Shown here: positions 1 through 7,545 of the stretch, in pieces
Numbering within the stretch: position 1 is the first letter of the stretch
How the letters are laid out: every line of letters starts with the position of its first letter
Assembly (NCBI GenBank): GCA_022842905.1
Contig: JALHOS010000021.1
Coordinates: 1 to 37,472, forward strand
DNA length: 37,472 nt
Direction of reading: 5' to 3'
Origin: Myxococcaceae bacterium
GTDB taxonomy: Bacteria > Myxococcota > Myxococcia > Myxococcales > Myxococcaceae
Translations under genes and position numbers: made by a program
The notes under the pieces: model-generated
Seen by the model: the letters and a program-made list of their open reading frames with translations, nothing else
What the model was told of the DNA's origin: nothing
The model's database searches: none

Positions 1-250
1 GCGTCGCCGTGGCGAAGCCTTCCCACTCGGTGCGGCCCGGCTCGTTGATGTGCACGTGCGAGTCGACGATGCCCGGCGTGACGAGCAAGTCCCCTGCTTC
101 GACGAGCCTCGCGCCCAGAGGCACCGCAGCGTCGAGCGGCCGCACCGCGACGATCCGTCCACCTCGAACGAACAGCGACGCCGGCTCCGGGTGCTCGGCC
201 AAGCCCACGAGCACGCGCTGCCCGCGAATGACCAGCTCGACGTTCATCAT
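1..250 (-). CDS. allB: Allantoinase, N-terminal part (cut by window edge)
   Basis: Only the first 83 residues are in the window; the gene continues past position 1. The visible part has the small N-terminal beta-sandwich of cyclic amidohydrolases, then the metal-binding segment HVHINEPGR at about residues 65-73 (H65 and H67 expected to bind zinc), followed by TEWEGF, a combination typical of allantoinase rather than dihydroorotase. Allantoinase opens the allantoin ring to allantoate in purine breakdown. The ATG at 250 overlaps the TGA of puuD (ATGA), so the two are probably translationally coupled; a second ATG follows at 247. The urate-oxidising neighbour supports allantoinase over other amidohydrolases. 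Confidence 0.88.
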   Translation of the reverse strand, partial: MMNVELVIRGQRVLVGLAEHPEPASLFVRGGRIVAVRPLDAAVPLGARLVEAGDLLVTPGIVDSHVHINEPGRTEWEGFATAT

Positions 251-1437
251 CGACCGGCTCCTTGCGCCTCGAGCCACGTGATGAGCTCCGCGCGCTCGTC
301 GTCCGTCATTTGCGTGAGGTTCGCCAGCGGCATGGCCTTGCTCTTCACCTGCGGCAGCATCTGGCTGGCGTACTGCTTGAGCTGCTCGGGCGTTTCGTAG
401 GAGAGGCCCTTGGGTGCGGCGGTCACTGACGGGTGTGTGGGCTTGAGCGCGTGGCAGGGCGTGCAGCGCTGCAGGACAATCACCTGCGCGCGCAGATCGC
501 TGACGGCACCAGCCGGAGCCTGCGCAGACGCCTGGGCCGACGCGGGCAGCGTCAGCCCCACGACCCCGGCCAGCGCCAGCACGGTCCCCGCGATCGCCCA
601 GGCGGGCGTCTGAAGCCGCTTGTTCATGAACAGCTTGATGCCGACCCCGAACGTCACCAGGCAGGCCAGCACGGCCCAGGGCGCGGCGCTGCCGTAGGTG
701 CTCGGGAAGTGGTTGCTCAGCATGGTGAAGAGCACCGGCAACGTCAGGAAGTGGTTGTGCGTGGACCGCGCCTTCGCGCGCAGCCCGAGGCTCGTGTCCA
801 CCGGCTTGCCCTGCTCCGTCGCGGCGATCATCGCTCGCTGCGCGGGGATGATCCGGAAGAAGACGTTGCTGGCCATGATCGTCCCCAGCATGGCGCCCAC
901 GTGCAGGAAGGCGCCCCGCCCGGAGAACACGTGGGACAGGCCGTACGCGGTCGCGCTGATGAGCCCCAGCCCGAGCAGCCCAAAGGCCCGGAGGTTGCCA
1001 ACGAGCGGCGTACGCGCGAGCCCGTCGTACACGACGACGGCGGCCACCAAGAGCCCGGCGCTCAGCGCGACGGCTTGGCCCTGCGTGAGCGCGAGCACTG
1101 ACGAGTCGATCAAGTACGACGCGCCCTGGAGCCAATAGACGATCGCCAGCAGCAGGAAGCCGGTGATCCACGTCGAGTACGACTCCCACTTGAACCAGTA
1201 GAGCGTCGGCGGCAGCTCGTTGGGCTGAAGCGACTTGCGCTTGATGACCTCGTAGAAGCCGCCGCTGTGGGTCATCCACAGCTCGCCGACCACGGTTCCT
1301 TCACGGGGCTTGGTCGGCTGCGACAGGTGGCTGTCGAGCCACATGAACAGGAACGAGTCGCCGATCCACATGATCCCCGCGATGACGTGGGCCCAGCGGA
1401 CGAGCAGGTGCAACCACTCTTGGAGGAGCGAGAGCAT
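247..1437 (-). CDS. puuD: Membrane-bound urate hydroxylase PuuD with C-terminal cytochrome c domain
   Basis: The 396-residue protein begins with a hydrophobic segment (WLHLLVRWAHVIAGIMWIGD) and has about eight membrane helices, as in the PuuD (DUF989) family, which oxidises urate to 5-hydroxyisourate and passes electrons to the respiratory chain instead of making peroxide. The C-terminal domain carries a c-type haem site CTPCH (C325, C328, H329) and a likely axial methionine in KAMPL (about M369). An Ala/Gln-rich linker joins the two parts. It starts at ATG 1437, 12 bp after the hydroxylase gene, and overlaps allB by ATGA. HIU hydrolase and OHCU decarboxylase, needed between the two steps, are not in the window. 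Confidence 0.92.
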   Translation of the reverse strand: MLSLLQEWLHLLVRWAHVIAGIMWIGDSFLFMWLDSHLSQPTKPREGTVVGELWMTHSGGFYEVIKRKSLQPNELPPTLYWFKWESYSTWITGFLLLAIVYWLQGASYLIDSSVLALTQGQAVALSAGLLVAAVVVYDGLARTPLVGNLRAFGLLGLGLISATAYGLSHVFSGRGAFLHVGAMLGTIMASNVFFRIIPAQRAMIAATEQGKPVDTSLGLRAKARSTHNHFLTLPVLFTMLSNHFPSTYGSAAPWAVLACLVTFGVGIKLFMNKRLQTPAWAIAGTVLALAGVVGLTLPASAQASAQAPAGAVSDLRAQVIVLQRCTPCHALKPTHPSVTAAPKGLSYETPEQLKQYASQMLPQVKSKAMPLANLTQMTDDERAELITWLEAQGAGR

Positions 1438-1449
1438 GAGCCGGGCGAC

Positions 1450-2121
1450 TTAGCGCCGGCCGCGCCACGGAGCCAGGTTCGCCGTGAGGGGATCGAAGGG
1501 AGGCGGCTTGCCCGGTAGCCCGAACTGGAGCGGCCCAGCGCAGTCCGCGTCGTACGTGCCGAAGATCCGATCCCAGATCACCAGCACCCCGCCGAAGTTC
1601 GCGTTTCGCAGCCGAGCGCTCTGCGCGTGGTGCCCGCGGTGCAAGAGCGGCGAGTTGAACACCCAGCCCGCTCGGTCGAACCAGGTGGGCGTGCGCGAGT
1701 GCAGGACGAAGACGAAGGCCGTGTGGAGCGCGTAGGCCAGCAGGTACACCTTGAAGGGAACGCCGAGCACGGCCAGCGGGAGGTGGCTGCCGAGGATCAG
1801 CACCGGGCTGAGCGCTGACGTCCGAAACGACACCGTCAGCTCACAGTGGTGGGCCTGGTGGTGCACCTCGTGGAGCCGCCACAGCCAGCCGACGCGGTGC
1901 TCGAGCCGGTGCTGCGCGTAGTACAGGACGTCGAGCGCGAGCAGCGCGCCGATCACGGCCCACGCGGACACCGGCCGAACGTCCGGCCCGTGCACCCAGG
2001 TGAAGAGCCAGCCGTACACGCCCAGGATCGGCCCGCTGACGATCAGCGCCACCGCCGTCGTCAGGGCACCGCAGCTCAGGTTCGACCACCGGCTCTTCGT
2101 CAGCGCGTTCATGACCTGCAT
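1450..2121 (-). CDS. Sterol desaturase / fatty acid hydroxylase family membrane protein
   Basis: This is a 223-residue membrane protein with the histidine clusters of the di-iron hydroxylase superfamily: HRLEH (71-75), HEVHHQAHH (84-92) and HRGHH (161-165), set between hydrophobic helices. Family members hydroxylate or desaturate lipids such as fatty acids, sterols and carotenoids; the substrate cannot be read from sequence. I chose ATG 2121; TTG 2139 and ATG 2112 are alternatives and none has a clear ribosome binding site. It is the first gene of a probable operon with puuD (12-bp gap) and allB. Why a lipid hydroxylase would lead a urate operon is unclear. Confidence 0.85.
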   Translation of the reverse strand: MQVMNALTKSRWSNLSCGALTTAVALIVSGPILGVYGWLFTWVHGPDVRPVSAWAVIGALLALDVLYYAQHRLEHRVGWLWRLHEVHHQAHHCELTVSFRTSALSPVLILGSHLPLAVLGVPFKVYLLAYALHTAFVFVLHSRTPTWFDRAGWVFNSPLLHRGHHAQSARLRNANFGGVLVIWDRIFGTYDADCAGPLQFGLPGKPPPFDPLTANLAPWRGRR

Positions 2122-2152
2122 GAACGCACGACCAGTCAATTCGCTGGCGGAA

Positions 2153-2199: not shown

Positions 2200-5100
2200 T
2201 CACTGCACGTTGAAATAGAACGCCTGCGGGTGGTGGAAGACGAGCGCCGACACCGAGGCCTCGGGATCCATCATGCAGCCGTCGGTCAGCCGCACCCCGA
2301 GCTCCTCGGGCTTGAGCAGCCGGAACAGCTTCTCCTGGTCCTCGAGGCGCGGGCAGGCCGGGTAGCCGAAGGAGTAGCGCTTGCCCTGATACTCGGCGCG
2401 GAAGCGCTCCAACATGGTCAGGTCCGGCTTGTCGGGGAACCCCCACATGCTGCGGATCTGGCTGTGCACGAGCTCGGCGTACCCCTCGGCGGTCTCCAGC
2501 GCGAGCGCCTGGACGGCGTGCATCTTCACGAAGTCGCCCTTCTGCTTGAGCTCCTCGGCGAGCGCGCGAATGCCGTCGCCCGCCGTCGTGACGAACAGGC
2601 AGAGCGCGTCCACCGGCTTCCCGTCGACCAACGGCGCGACGAAGTCCGACAGGCACACCTGGCTCTCCTTGTCCTGGCGGGTGAATTCGAAGGTCTCGAG
2701 CTTCTGGCCAGACTTGCCGTCGAAGACGTGGATCGCGTTCCCGTCGCTGGCGGCCTTGAAGAACTGCAGCACCGAGCGCGCCTTCATGCGCGGCTTGAGC
2801 AGTGCCTTGACCTCGTCGAGCTGCGCCTTGAGCTCGAGCGCCTTCCTGCCGTCGTCCGTGTCCTTGAGCCGTGCCTCTTCGGGCGTGCCGAGCAGCCGCG
2901 CCGCGCTGCCCTTGAGCCCAAAGTGCCGCCCGTAGAGCATGACCGGGTTGATGAAGCGCCAGATGTGCTCCAGCGGCGTGTTGGTGATGACGTGGCGTTC
3001 GAAGTCCGGCGGCGGCGGGAGCTTGCCGAGCACCTCGATGTCCTTGGCCCGGCTCGTGTTCACTGGGCCGGCGGCGGGCGCGGGGCGGTTGGCGACCTCG
3101 AGCTTGAGCCGCTCGCGTCGCTCGGCGAGCTCTCGGTTGAGCCGCTCGAGCGCGGCCGGGTCCACCACCGTCTTGGCCAGATCCAAGCCCGACATGGCGT
3201 CGTTCGCGTAAGCGACCGTCCCGGCGGGGTACGCGGGGGCGATGTTCTTGTCGACGAAGTTGCGCGACAGCGCCGCGCCGCCCACCAAGATCGGCACTGT
3301 GACGCCCGCGCGGTGAAGATCCTCGGCCGTCGTCACCATCTGGTGCGCGCTCTTCACGAGCAGCCCCGACAGGCCGACCATGTCCGGGCGGTGCTCCTTG
3401 ACCGCGGCGATGAGCTGCTCGGGCGGCACCTTGATGCCCAGGTTCACCACCTCGAAGCCGTTGTTCGCGAAGATGATCTCGACCAGGTTCTTGCCGATGT
3501 CGTGGACGTCACCCTTCACGGTGGCGAGCAGCACCTTCCCGCGCACGGCCGTCGCCGACTTGTCCATCTTCGGCTCGAGGTAACTGACGGCCGCCTTCAT
3601 CACCTCGGCGCTCTGGAGCACCTCCGCGACGATGAGCTCGTTGTTGCCGAACAGCCGGCCGACCTCGTCCATGCCCTTCATCAGCGGGCCGTTGATGATG
3701 GCCAGCGGCGCGGTGTCCTTGAGCTTCTCGTCGAGGTCGGCGATCAGCCCGTCTCGCGACCCTTCGATCACGTACTGCCTGAGCCGCTCATCGAGGGTCA
3801 GGTTCGACGCGATGACCTTGGCGGTGGGCTTCTTGGCGCGGAAGTGCGCGGCAAACGGGGCGATCGGATCGGCGCCGCGGTTCGACAGCAGGTCCTCACA
3901 GAGCTTCTTCTCGTCTTCGTGGATCTGCGCGTAGCGCTCGAGCTTCTCCGAGTTCACCAGCGCCATGTCCAGGCCAGCCTGAACGCAGTGGTACAGGAAG
4001 ACCGAGTTCAGGACTTCACGACCGGCGGTCGGCAGGCCGAAGGACACGTTGGAGATGCCGAGCACCGTCTTGCACCGCGGGAAGCGCTGCTTGATGAGCC
4101 GCACGCCTTCGATCGTCTCCACCGCCGAGCCGACGTACTGCTGATCACCCGACGCGCAGGGAAAGACGAGCGGGTCGAAGTAGATGTCTTCGGGCTGCAC
4201 GCCGAAGTCGCGCGTGAGGATCTCGTAGCTCCGCTCGGCCACCGCGAGCTTCCGGGCGCGCGTCACCGCCATGCCCGTCTCGTCGATGCAGCCGACCACC
4301 AGCGCGGCGCCGAACTTCCGCGCCAGCGGCACGACCGCCTCGAAGCGCTCGAGCCCGTCCTCGAGGTTGATGGAGTTGATGATCGCCTTGCCCTGCGAAT
4401 ACGTCAGCGCGCGCGCGATCACCTTCTCGTCCGTCGAGTCGATCATCAACGGCACGCGAACCTTCTTCACCACCACGTCCAGGAAGCGCTCCATGTCCTC
4501 GAGCTCTTCGCGGTCCGGGTTCGCCAGGCAAATGTCGATGACGTGGGCGCCCTTCTTCACCTGCGCCCGGGCGATCTCCGACGCGTCTTCGATCTGCCCG
4601 GCGACGATCAGCTCCTTGAACTTCTTCGAGCCGATCACGTTGGTGCGCTCCCCGACGATGATCGGGCGCGCGTCTTCGATCTCACAGCAGTCGACGCCGG
4701 ACAGCCGAGACCGCGCCGGTGGCGCGGCGCGCTTGGGCACGATGCCGCGCACGGCCTGCGTCATCGCCTCCACGTGCCCCGAGTGCGTGCCACAGCACCC
4801 GCCGACGACCGACACCCAGCCGCTCTCGGCGAAGCGGCGCAGCACCCGCGCCACCATGTCCGGCGTCTCGAGGTACTTGCCGTTCTCGTCCGGCAGGCCC
4901 GCGTTCGGCACGCAGGACACCGGGAAGCGGGACATGCCGGCCAGCGTGCGAATGTGGTCGGTCATGAACTCCGGGCCCGTCGCGCAGTTCAGCCCCAGGT
5001 AGAGCAGGTCCAGGTGCTCGAGCGACGTCGCCAGCGCCTCCACCGACTGGCCGGCGAGCATCGTCCCCATGGGCTCGATCGTCCCGGACACGGCCACCGG

Positions 5101-5724
5101 CACCGAGTCGCCCGCCCGCGCGAACGCCTGCTGCGCGCCGATCAGCGCCGCCTTCACGTTCCGCGTGTCCTGCGCCGTCTCGATCAGCAGGTAGTCCACG
5201 CCACCTTCGAGCAGCGCGAAGGCCTGCGCTTCGAAGTTCTCCACCAGTTCCTCGAAGGTGGTCCCGCCGGTCACGCTGATCGCCTTGGTGGTGGGCCCAA
5301 TGGAGCCCGCGACCCACCGCGGCCGGTCCGCCGTCGAAAACGTGTCCGCGGCTTCACGCGCGAGCTGCGCCGCCCGCACGTTGAGCTCGTGCGCCCGCGC
5401 CCCGAGCCCGAACTCGGCCAACACCATGGGCGTGCCGCCGAACGTGTTCGTCTCGGTCACGTCGGCGCCCGCCGCGAAGTACGCCTCGTGAATGCCGCGG
5501 ACGATCTCCGGCCGCACGGCGACCAGGTACTCGTTGCAGCCCTCGTACTCGGCGCCGCCGAAGTCCGCCGCCTTGAGGTTCTTGGCCTGCAGCATGGTCC
5601 CCATGGCGCCGTCGAGCACCAGCACCCGCTGCGTCATGGCGGCCTTGAGCGCGGCGATGCGGGCCTTGCGGGCCTCACGCGCGGACGGGGTGAGCGACGG
5701 AGGGACCTTGGGGATCGCAGTCAT
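2200..5724 (-). CDS. metH: Cobalamin-dependent methionine synthase
   Basis: The 1174-residue protein is close to the usual MetH length (about 1,200). Modules in order: homocysteine domain (LVLDGAMGTMLQ near 35-46; zinc cysteines in GLNCATG near 245 and GGCCGTHSGH near 306-307), pterin domain (IVGERTNVIGS near 354), four-helix cap, B12 domain with GDVHDIGKN near 735-745 that supplies the cobalt-binding histidine, and AdoMet reactivation domain (GYPACPR near 1116). It transfers the methyl group of 5-methyl-tetrahydrofolate to homocysteine in the cytoplasm. ATG 5724 overlaps the upstream regulator's TGA (ATGA). The frame stays open about 176 codons further upstream, but that part lies over the regulator and does not resemble MetH. 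Confidence 0.97.
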   Translation of the reverse strand: MTAIPKVPPSLTPSAREARKARIAALKAAMTQRVLVLDGAMGTMLQAKNLKAADFGGAEYEGCNEYLVAVRPEIVRGIHEAYFAAGADVTETNTFGGTPMVLAEFGLGARAHELNVRAAQLAREAADTFSTADRPRWVAGSIGPTTKAISVTGGTTFEELVENFEAQAFALLEGGVDYLLIETAQDTRNVKAALIGAQQAFARAGDSVPVAVSGTIEPMGTMLAGQSVEALATSLEHLDLLYLGLNCATGPEFMTDHIRTLAGMSRFPVSCVPNAGLPDENGKYLETPDMVARVLRRFAESGWVSVVGGCCGTHSGHVEAMTQAVRGIVPKRAAPPARSRLSGVDCCEIEDARPIIVGERTNVIGSKKFKELIVAGQIEDASEIARAQVKKGAHVIDICLANPDREELEDMERFLDVVVKKVRVPLMIDSTDEKVIARALTYSQGKAIINSINLEDGLERFEAVVPLARKFGAALVVGCIDETGMAVTRARKLAVAERSYEILTRDFGVQPEDIYFDPLVFPCASGDQQYVGSAVETIEGVRLIKQRFPRCKTVLGISNVSFGLPTAGREVLNSVFLYHCVQAGLDMALVNSEKLERYAQIHEDEKKLCEDLLSNRGADPIAPFAAHFRAKKPTAKVIASNLTLDERLRQYVIEGSRDGLIADLDEKLKDTAPLAIINGPLMKGMDEVGRLFGNNELIVAEVLQSAEVMKAAVSYLEPKMDKSATAVRGKVLLATVKGDVHDIGKNLVEIIFANNGFEVVNLGIKVPPEQLIAAVKEHRPDMVGLSGLLVKSAHQMVTTAEDLHRAGVTVPILVGGAALSRNFVDKNIAPAYPAGTVAYANDAMSGLDLAKTVVDPAALERLNRELAERRERLKLEVANRPAPAAGPVNTSRAKDIEVLGKLPPPPDFERHVITNTPLEHIWRFINPVMLYGRHFGLKGSAARLLGTPEEARLKDTDDGRKALELKAQLDEVKALLKPRMKARSVLQFFKAASDGNAIHVFDGKSGQKLETFEFTRQDKESQVCLSDFVAPLVDGKPVDALCLFVTTAGDGIRALAEELKQKGDFVKMHAVQALALETAEGYAELVHSQIRSMWGFPDKPDLTMLERFRAEYQGKRYSFGYPACPRLEDQEKLFRLLKPEELGVRLTDGCMMDPEASVSALVFHHPQAFYFNVQ

Positions 5725-6614
5725 GGCTTGGTTCCAGTGAGGAGAAATGGACGAAACGCGTGCGCGCCGTCGCGCGGCGCATCGAAGAAGTGGACCTGGC
5801 GGAAGCCCGCCTGCTCGACGACGAGCCGCAGCGCCGGCGGTTCGAAGCCCAAGGTGACGTGCCCCAGCCGCTCGAGCACCCAGCGCTCGCCGTGGGGCAT
5901 GAGCTCGAGCACGATCACCCGCCCCGAAGGCTTGAGCAGCCGCGCCGCTTCCCTGAGCACCGACGCCGCGTCGTTCACGAAGTGCAGGCTCTGCGACAGG
6001 ACCACCAGATCCGCCTTGCCCGCGGCCAAGGGCAGCGCCTGGAGATCCGCTTCGATGAAGCGCACGTTCTTCAGGCCTTCGCGCGCCACCCGCGTCCGAG
6101 CCTGCGCCAGCGCGGTCTCGCTCCGGTCGATCGCCGTGACCTTCTTCGCCCACCGCGCCAGCTCCACGGTCAGCACACCGGTCCCGCAGCCGAAGTCGAG
6201 CACGTCCAGCTTCGGGAGCAGCGACGCCAGCGCCGCGGACCACAGCGGCCACGACTGCCCCGGCTCGAGCAGCCGCTCGTTCAAGGTCGCGCGATCTTCC
6301 CGGCGGCGCAGCAACTCCTCCAGCCTCGCCCCGTCGCCGTGCTCATCCGCCCCACCCCGGGCCAGCCGAATCAGCGGCCAGCGCTCGTCGTCCTCGCCGA
6401 CGGCCAGCGAGTAGTACGTGTACCCGCCGGTCCGCTCTTCGCGAATGAGCTCCAGCGCCTTGAGCTTGCCCAGGTGGTGCGACACCGACGACTGGGCGAC
6501 CCCGACGACGGACACCAGCTCCGACACGTTGAGCGGCGCCTGGCCCACGAGCTTCAGAATCCGCAGCCGCGTCTCGTCGCCCAGCACTCGGAATGCGTCG
6601 GACAGGGCCTGCAT
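5721..6614 (-). CDS. ArsR-family regulator fused to SAM-dependent methyltransferase (SahR-like)
   Basis: The 297-residue protein has an N-terminal ArsR winged helix (SDAFRVLGDETRLRILKL, recognition helix about 39-54 including SSVSHHLGKL) and a C-terminal class I methyltransferase fold with the SAM-binding loop LDFGCGTG (139-146) and a motif-II-like acidic AIDRSE. ArsR regulators with such a domain that sense S-adenosylhomocysteine or SAM and control methionine-cycle genes are known in Proteobacteria (SahR type). Direct overlap with metH supports this role. ATG 6614 was chosen because it starts the ArsR domain and lies just after a palindrome; ATG 6683 would add 23 unconserved Cys/His-containing residues and overlap the patatin start. 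Catalytic methyltransferase activity is uncertain. Confidence 0.85.
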   Translation of the reverse strand: MQALSDAFRVLGDETRLRILKLVGQAPLNVSELVSVVGVAQSSVSHHLGKLKALELIREERTGGYTYYSLAVGEDDERWPLIRLARGGADEHGDGARLEELLRRREDRATLNERLLEPGQSWPLWSAALASLLPKLDVLDFGCGTGVLTVELARWAKKVTAIDRSETALAQARTRVAREGLKNVRFIEADLQALPLAAGKADLVVLSQSLHFVNDAASVLREAARLLKPSGRVIVLELMPHGERWVLERLGHVTLGFEPPALRLVVEQAGFRQVHFFDAPRDGAHAFRPFLLTGTKP

Positions 6615-6622
6615 ATCGGCGC

Positions 6623-6646
6623 ATCGACATACGTCGATTTCGACGT
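6623..6646. promoter_or_regulatory. Overlapping palindromes: candidate operator of the ArsR-methyltransferase/metH operon
   Basis: Two perfect inverted repeats overlap. ATCGACATACGTCGAT (6623-6638) has 6-bp arms around 4 bp; ACGTCGATTTCGACGT (6631-6646) has 7-bp arms around 2 bp. The block lies 8 bp upstream of the regulator's ATG (6614) and 35 bp before the divergent patatin-like gene. ArsR dimers usually bind such A/T-centred palindromes at their own promoter, so autoregulation and control of metH are likely. The short distance suggests a leaderless or very short leader transcript. Confidence 0.6.
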
Positions 6647-6681
6647 GCCCGCAAGCCGAAGTCTGGCTATGGGCGGCCACC

Positions 6682-7545
6682 ATGAAGCTGTCGAGCCTCC
6701 TGGCGGGGAAGAAGGTCGGGGTCGTCCTGTCGAGCGGCTACTTCGGCTTCTTCGGGCACGCCGGCTTCGTCGCGGCGCTGGAGGAAGCGGGGATCGTCCC
6801 GTCGGCGTGGGCGGGCTCGTCGGCCGGTGGCCTCGTCGCCGCGTTCGGCGCCGCGGGGGTGTCCGCCAAGACGATCGAAGGGCACCTGTCGGCGCGGACG
6901 AAGGACGACTTCTGGGATCGCGATCTGCGCGGGGCGTTGCTCGCGAGCGTGCGCCGACACCACGGCGCGACCGGCCTGCTCAAGGGCGACCGCTTTCGCG
7001 CGCTGCTCGAGCGACTCCTGCCGGTCCACCGCTTCGAGCTGCTGCGAACGCCGCTGGCGATCGTCGCGACGGACCTGAGCGCGCAGCGGCCGCGGCTGAT
7101 CACGAGCGGGCCCCTGGCGCCCGCGCTCCACGCCACCTGCGCGTACCCGGGCATGTTCCGCGCGGTGCGGCTCGACGGCGCGCTGCTGTGGGACGGCGGC
7201 ATCATCGACAAGGCCCCGGCCCTGGCGCTCGCCGATCACGCCCCTGCGCTCGACGCGCTGCTGGTCCACTACCTGCCGAGCAACAACGCGGGCCCCAAGG
7301 AGCCGACCGGAGGCCTGGCCTACGTGCAGGGGCTCTCCGCCGGGTTCGATGCGCTGCGGCGCGATCATTTTCGCCTGCAGCTCGAGGTGCTCGCCGGCCG
7401 TGGGCTGCCCACGTACGTCGTCACCTCGTCGCTCCCACGGCTGGGGCCCGACAAGCTCGCGCGAGGGGCGGCCGTCGTGAAGCAGGCGCACGCGTCGGTG
7501 GCCAAGGCACTGGCGAGCGCCCCGCGTTCGTTCCAAGCCGACTGA
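6682..7545 (+). CDS. Patatin-like phospholipase family protein
   Basis: The 287-residue protein has the serine lipase elbow GSSAG (45-49, nucleophile Ser47) and the dyad aspartate in WDGG (about Asp171), the Ser-Asp pair of patatin hydrolases. The oxyanion loop, normally Gly-rich, reads SSGYFGFFGHAG. No signal peptide or membrane helix is seen, so it is probably cytoplasmic or peripheral; members cleave acyl groups from phospholipids. The start is ATG 6682, the first codon of the conserved beta-strand region; the frame is open upstream to 6418 but runs over the regulator gene. It is divergent from that gene and ends 12 bp from the convergent nadD stop, with no terminator seen between. Confidence 0.85.
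   Translation: MKLSSLLAGKKVGVVLSSGYFGFFGHAGFVAALEEAGIVPSAWAGSSAGGLVAAFGAAGVSAKTIEGHLSARTKDDFWDRDLRGALLASVRRHHGATGLLKGDRFRALLERLLPVHRFELLRTPLAIVATDLSAQRPRLITSGPLAPALHATCAYPGMFRAVRLDGALLWDGGIIDKAPALALADHAPALDALLVHYLPSNNAGPKEPTGGLAYVQGLSAGFDALRRDHFRLQLEVLAGRGLPTYVVTSSLPRLGPDKLARGAAVVKQAHASVAKALASAPRSFQAD

Follow-up and report, generated by a model that had tools for sequence, protein, structure and literature searches.

In the window, that is, the whole 37,472-nucleotide stretch of DNA analysed here (contig JALHOS010000021.1, positions 1 to 37,472 of the forward strand), it was found that a gene for an ArsR-methyltransferase fusion protein directly precedes metH, the gene of the B12-dependent methionine synthase, and that a conserved palindromic site lies just before the start codon of the regulator gene. 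It is quite likely, judging from these sequences, that the protein is a metH repressor with a ligand of the S-adenosylmethionine (SAM) or S-adenosylhomocysteine (SAH) type. The window belongs to a draft genome of a Myxococcaceae bacterium (GCA_022842905.1; 7.85 Mb in 667 contigs). The closest named relatives of the regulator are from Myxococcus, Corallococcus, Archangium, Pyxidicoccus, Citreicoccus, and Hyalangium (Myxococcaceae, together with related Myxococcales metagenome-assembled genomes). The elements concerned are as follows:

5721-6614, minus strand: ArsR-methyltransferase fusion regulator of the metH type, SahR/SamR-like, 297 amino acids (aa), HTH_5 plus Methyltransf_11/25/31; 61 orthologs analysed
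2200-5724, minus strand: metH, 1174 aa, five MetH Pfam domains (S-methyl_trans, Pterin_bind, B12-binding_2, B12-binding, and Met_synt_B12)
6623-6638, minus strand: predicted operator core ATCGACGTATGTCGAT with two half-sites, the single strict match in the genome
6613-6618, minus strand: third half-site CGATAT, 10 base pairs (bp) beyond the core and reaching into the start codon

The open reading frame of the regulator starts with an ATG at 6614, and its stop codon (5721-5723) overlaps with the metH start codon as ATGA (5721-5724). The initial annotation had proposed such an overlap and a fusion protein of the SahR type that keeps the SAM-binding loop in its C-terminal domain, and the Pfam domains and the predicted fold agree with it. 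An ArsR helix-turn-helix (HTH_5) domain at residues 13-58 scores above the curated cut-off, and a class I methyltransferase domain (Methyltransf_11/25/31) occupies residues 135-237 or so. The SAM-binding loop VLDFGCGTG is complete and the strand-2 acidic residue (AID163) is also kept. The SAM-binding residues D140, G142, G144, G146, and D163 are invariant across nine sequences of 29-72 percent identity, and D163 is near-invariant over 50 aligned sequences. The AlphaFold2 model made with 50 aligned sequences has a winged helix and a Rossmann-type domain (predicted local distance difference test 88.8, predicted template modelling score 0.60). When the PDB was searched by sequence, the two parts of the protein, ArsR and methyltransferase, hit separate chains, and no chain matching both parts was found among the best 60 of 109 matches. 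The top chains of the PDB fold search (Rv2258c) fit single domains, not the whole arrangement (template modelling score 0.46, root-mean-square deviation 17). The metal-thiolate site of the ArsR/SmtB metalloregulators is absent; the protein has a single cysteine, which sits within the SAM loop.

ArsR proteins are known to sense diverse signals. It might be speculated that the regulator senses something else, such as homocysteine, adenosine, or methionine, and that the methyltransferase fold is a dimerisation relic. This is improbable, since the SAM loop and the strand-2 acidic residue are invariant or nearly so from 29 to 72 percent identity. Is the protein chiefly an enzyme, supplying SAH or methylating a substrate, as was assumed for sora14 of a published terpene-nucleoside cluster? 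The methyltransferase fold is intact, and a 299-aa MetH neighbour is listed there as a "SAM-dependent methyltransferase" (PMC7321100). However, the N-terminal ArsR-family domain passes its curated cut-off and a conserved site lies over the start codon of the gene itself, which makes an enzyme very improbable.

Orthologs of the regulator were searched for in 116 genomes including that of the window, a match being at least 59 percent identity over nearly the full length. They were found in 61 genomes; a 62nd genome (G094), in which the gene is split over two contig pieces, was excluded. Sixty of the 61 belong to the family of the window's genome, from which 68 genomes were searched, and one belongs to another family of the order. 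Thus, by sequence, most of the Myxococcaceae searched share the metH switch. The metH gene is directly downstream of the regulator gene in 60 of the 61 orthologs; the locus of the other one is cut off by the contig end. The ATGA overlap is found in 53/61. A Shine-Dalgarno-like motif precedes none of the 61 regulator starts versus 41 of the 53 overlapping metH starts (counted with a simple motif, without background control). Among 25 loci with distant matches (L332-L356), a crude filter of nine gave no metH, ahcY, or ArsR frame of at least 230 aa. The record L313, whose title is Comamonas sp. KCTC 72670, has a Myxococcaceae-like contig with a regulator of 65 percent identity; the title is probably wrong.

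The initial annotation described two overlapping perfect palindromes 8 bp before the ATG and took the pair as the control site. Both exist exactly as described. The first palindrome (ATCGAC/GTCGAT with a 4-nucleotide spacer) covers 6623-6638 and begins 8 bp before the regulator ATG, and the second (ACGTCGA/TCGACGT) has a 2-nucleotide spacer:

6631-6646, no strand assigned: second palindrome ACGTCGATTTCGACGT, which is particular to this genome

Just one of the two, ATCGAC-N4-GTCGAT, looks like the predicted operator. A site of this type lies just before the start codon in 61/61 analysed orthologs (16-bp scores of 14.6-31.9 bits); to locate the sites, a pattern drawn from the initial alignments was used (ATCG and, at position 7, T). 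The operator consensus is ATCGAY-RTAT-GTNGAT-NNNN-CGATAT, with a half-site every 10 bp, the third reaching into the ATG. There are 41 distinct 26-bp sites among the 61; A8, A14, and A22 are invariant, as are the anchored positions, and the third half-site (positions 20-25) carries 1.24-2.0 bits over the distinct sites. When scored by a matrix built without it, the site of the window reaches 27.6 bits as a 16-mer and 41.6 bits as a 26-mer. In 51 close loci of a named collection, many of them from one species and hence no second sample, the best gene-strand match to the 26-bp matrix is at least 26 bits. Thus, the first palindrome of the annotated pair is conserved and the second is not; the conserved partner is the third half-site over the start codon.

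As an operator, the second palindrome was rejected: pairing at 6 or more of its 7 positions is found in 1/61 orthologs, namely in the window's own sequence. Positions -8 to -3, the outer part used by the second palindrome, lie on the other side of the core from the third half-site and carry 0.5 bit or less, and position -2 (1.08 bits) is G in most orthologs and A in the window. With two mismatches allowed, the second palindrome has 5 matches in the window versus 0.48 expected, a count reached by 0/100 shuffles; only that at 6631 is exact; each of the four others has 2 mismatches and lies elsewhere. The 7.85-Mb genome has a single exact copy of the first palindrome; with two mismatches allowed, this palindrome has 2 matches in the window versus 1.59 expected, i.e., no enrichment. 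Searching the genome loosely for the palindrome, with 2 mismatches allowed, was too unspecific for use: there were 170 matches per strand and 60 in the control. With up to one mismatch, the degenerate pattern ATCGAYRTATNTNSAT found the operator place alone in this genome, and its reversed control found 0. Autoregulation is most likely, as suggested by the conserved palindromic site before the regulator's own gene, to which binding is predicted.

The strongest conserved feature upstream of the operator is T-T/G-G (TTG/TGG) at positions -16 to -14, with 1.54, 0.92, and 1.83 bits. It belongs to a putative promoter:

6649-6654, minus strand: -35-like element TTGCGG, conserved at positions -16 and -14
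6626-6631, minus strand: putative -10-like element TATGTC inside the operator, after a 17-bp spacer

The spacer is counted from the -35-like element to TATGTN, taken as the -10 box. In this box A8 is invariant and T9 is found in 38/41 distinct sites; T7 belonged to the anchoring pattern. I infer a leaderless transcript from a promoter that is covered by the operator, hence repression. The regulator is probably an autoregulating repressor of the regulator-metH operon, binding as a dimer to the 16-bp operator, perhaps with a second dimer on the third half-site 10 bp away. Since the operator extends over the -10-like box and the start codon, RNA polymerase would be barred from the promoter. The mRNA would start at the ATG or no more than a few bases from it, and metH would be translated through coupling. 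The C-terminal methyltransferase fold would be the sensor for SAH or SAM. SAH, which accumulates as methyl groups are spent, is the most likely signal: its binding would release the repressor, allowing metH expression and the remethylation of homocysteine. Control of the locus by a SAM/SAH riboswitch was also considered and rejected, as there is no Rfam riboswitch in the window at gathering scores.

The initial annotation had named metH as the controlled gene. The best evidence that metH is the operator's purpose, as far as sequences can tell, came from metH2, which encodes the pterin/B12 half where methionine synthase is split (the metH of the window is not split). I scanned 67 family genomes with the strict pattern, and 12 further stretches were taken from at least that many sites. 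Three of them (G015, G047, and G059) precede metH2 and have the full operator with the same -35 spacing; in the other nine, no methionine gene was found among the frames listed (judged by eye, with no family search). The split type is found in 21 genomes, and the metH2 start is readable in 20 of them (not in G001). Where metH2 is coupled to metH1, with 26-55 bp from the metH1 stop to the motif just inside metH2, it has its own operator of at least 14 bits in 0/17 cases. Where it is separated, metH1 being 186 bp or 724 bp away or absent from the 1.5 kb examined, it has its own operator in 3/3. Since the operator reappears at the uncoupled metH2 genes and not at the coupled ones, metH is taken as the target.

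Does the operator also control other genes of the methionine cycle? For metF, metK, and ahcY, thirty loci each were scanned, of 44 genomes with a match each, with a threshold of 10 bits; part of the thirty ahcY loci are from genomes without a metH-type regulator. The metF loci gave one weak match (10.6 bits), the metK loci three (25.4, 17.1, and 12.6 bits), and the ahcY loci three (25.4, 14.8, and 14.8 bits). Both 25.4-bit matches are one place in G023 (G023:C106:2694), some 70 bp ahead of the probable metK start of a metK-ahcY operon; no ahcY-linked regulator of G023 is among the matches listed. The two 14.8-bit ahcY matches overlap ahcY-type operators, which are described below. The initial annotation proposed a search for further palindromes near ahcY, metK, and metF and held that their absence from methionine-cycle genes would speak against it. 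In the genome of the window they are indeed absent from these three genes, although the operator of G023 shows that such a copy exists in a relative. Since the operator has no copies at the metF, metK, and ahcY loci of this genome, yet is conserved across relatives, a narrow regulon rather than a lack of function is suggested.

It was found that this genome encodes a paralog of the regulator directly before ahcY (G000:C258:3959-4801, L009). It resembles the metH-type regulator in its domain order and in its position directly before a gene of a SAM-cycle enzyme, but the two share 32 percent identity, fall in separate clades, and have different operators. Regulators linked to ahcY are found in at least 22 of the 68 family genomes among the matches listed. 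The ahcY-type operator is approximately TTGCATTCATGCGCATGAATGCATA; its matrix was built from 17 distinct sites of 22 loci, leaving out two duplicates, L183 and L184 (poor fit, 25.9 and 21.6 bits), and L274 (the site type of family f5). The ahcY-type site of this genome scores 34.4 bits with a matrix built without it. In this genome, the metH and ahcY matrices each miss the operator of the other (below 10 bits). The separation is incomplete across the family, as 2/61 metH-type regions score 15.5 and 10.0 bits with the ahcY matrix and 2/21 ahcY-type regions score 14.8 bits with the metH matrix. The ahcY-linked regulators of family f5 and of some f3 genomes within the order have a further site, approximately ATATCCGTCCATCCGGAT, which lies at the start codon or shortly before it. 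In some genomes, including that of the window, ahcY is covered by two separate matches of the Pfam SAH-hydrolase model and not by one; two enzyme forms may occur in the family.

Which of the two ligands is sensed? From the sequence evidence, the chance that it is SAH is about even. Leyn et al. (2014) inferred that SamR is a sensor of SAM, not SAH, since SAM-cycle genes besides metK are outside its regulon (PMC4239095). Tentatively, the metH regulator may be the same autorepressor with SAM as a co-repressor, so that ample SAM shuts metH off, as proposed for SamR. One of the 30 ahcY loci has a metH-type site of at least 20 bits, which comes near the argument used for SamR, and the ahcY of this genome has its own regulator, which could be the SAH sensor. 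On the other hand, the G023 operator before metK-ahcY fits an SAH sensor equally well, and the published effector data, as described in PMC4239095 and PMC8877191, concern SAH. In some Myxococcaceae, the metH type might sense SAM (supply) and the ahcY type SAH (waste) at separate targets, the two jointly reading the SAM:SAH ratio as a methylation index; this I consider unlikely. Some genomes naturally pair two paralogous candidate sensors, each with its own operator, within the same cell, and the SAM-or-SAH question left by SamR therefore becomes a direct comparison. With the metH-type regulator, the myxobacteria including M. xanthus gain a defined, small candidate switch of the SAM cycle.

Several points weigh against a SahR-like repressor of metH that responds to SAH. 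The invariance of ATCG and T7 results in part from the construction of the site search, which was anchored on this pattern. A simple consensus promoter scan calls no promoter at the operator. The metF, metK, and ahcY loci of this genome being without an operator, the protein is no general methionine-cycle regulator here. As ahcY is outside the regulon, the SamR-like argument counts against SAH as the ligand. All three metH2 operators come from a single genus (g16) and may therefore not represent independent events. The operator motif differs from the SahR palindrome, and in the tree the protein falls into a clade of its own.

The site also faces a patatin-like gene, as the initial annotation had noticed:

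6682-7545, plus strand: patatin-like phospholipase gene, divergent from the operator

The patatin gene is the divergent neighbour in 35 of the 61 genomes, lies elsewhere in the genome in 18, and was not found in 8. It is doubtful that the shared operator also governs this gene and ties lipid turnover to the methyl cycle. The divergent arrangement would be consistent with such control, as would three of the four genus g11 genomes (L203, L241, and L242), whose patatin gene is far from the regulator yet preceded by an operator of 25-31 bits. However, in these three the operator is barely more conserved than its flanks (19/24 versus 186/245 columns, 79 versus 76 percent). Moreover, an operator within 250 bp is missing from 14 of the 17 unlinked copies that were scanned (G047 has just 99 bp upstream); these 14 include the copy of G010, the fourth g11 genome, and an 18th copy (G056), which begins at a contig end, was left out of the scan. 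In 15/19 linked genomes scanned, the operator is 94-110 bp before the estimated patatin start, which also argues against control. The patatin gene was therefore rejected as a general member of the regulon. On the same strand 3′ of metH, the window (250-2139) encodes two proteins, one with a fatty acid hydroxylase domain and one with a urate oxidase N-terminal domain.

In a 44-row maximum-likelihood tree, the metH-type regulators, the Myxococcaceae ahcY-type regulators, and the ahcY-linked regulators of family f5 each form one group (100/100), and three alphaproteobacterial rows form their own group (100/99). The Leptospira row joins the metH type at 87/74 on a long branch, its placement being unsure. 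The tree branches are long (with a program warning), and the rows include no Desulfovibrio SahR and no Xanthomonas SamR. A literature search for a myxobacterial SahR found none, most subscription journals being outside its coverage.

It is known that SahR is an ArsR-family regulator of the SAM cycle, which responds to SAH in Desulfovibrio (PMC4239095; PMC8877191), and its autoregulation is supported in Ensifer aridi (PMC8877191). Among the fetched homologs, those of Leptospira and Rhizobium lie before ahcY (metH being two genes on) and before metF, respectively, and that of Methylobacterium aquaticum lies before metF and metH (an unannotated record, with frames judged by eye). The Rhizobium, Methylobacterium, and Leptospira homologs beside metF or ahcY carry ATAAAGATATCTTTAT or ATATCAAGATATCTTGATAT. 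The window regulator is like SahR in having an ArsR HTH plus a methyltransferase fold, a site before its own gene, a SAM-cycle target, and ATC-N10-GAT symmetry; the SahR-like palindrome of Methylobacterium bullatum, CATAAAGATATCTTTATG, also reaches into the start codon, as the window operator does. In contrast, the alphaproteobacterial and Leptospira homologs share about 30 percent identity with the window regulator, which sits in its own clade, and, compared with the sites of these homologs, the window site ATCGAYRTATGTNGAT shares the ATC-N10-GAT frame alone with the 20-bp SahR palindrome. The core regulon of SahR (sahR, ahcY, metH, metF, and metK) was not found, as the predicted regulon of this genome is the regulator itself and metH only; of the other SahR regulon genes, metF (L106), metK (L156), and ahcY (L185) have no operator here.

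The ATC-N10-GAT frame is common to the sites of SamR and of gammaproteobacterial SahR (PMC4239095). By its published description, SamR of Xanthomonadales lies with metH1 and metH2, has an ATC-N10-GAT site, and leaves ahcY outside its regulon (PMC4239095). Co-location with metH1-metH2 together with an ATC-N10-GAT operator, as in SamR, was found in relatives with a split metH. Thus, by its place, the metH-type regulator resembles SamR, as compared by description. It differs from SamR in that the regulon here is metH alone; the strict pattern occurs once in the genome, with none at metF and metK. On the evidence of the sequences, the regulator probably works like SahR/SamR, but its regulon and its exact motif set it apart from SahR as defined.

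A similar locus is found in the (2-hydroxy)sorangiadenosine cluster of Vitiosangium cumulatum, in which a MetH of 1171 aa, a SAM-dependent methyltransferase of 299 aa, and a patatin of 292 aa are adjacent (PMC7321100, Table 4). PMC7321100 reads the MetH and the methyltransferase as an adenosine supply. The order and approximate sizes of sora13-sora14-sora15 match the window locus, a likeness by order and size only. Whereas sora13-15 have been read as genes of a terpene cluster, the trio described here recurs across the family. From gene order and sizes as tabulated there, the sora14 "methyltransferase" is probably the regulator and sora13 its target. This suggests that sora13-15 of the published cluster are housekeeping rather than biosynthetic genes.

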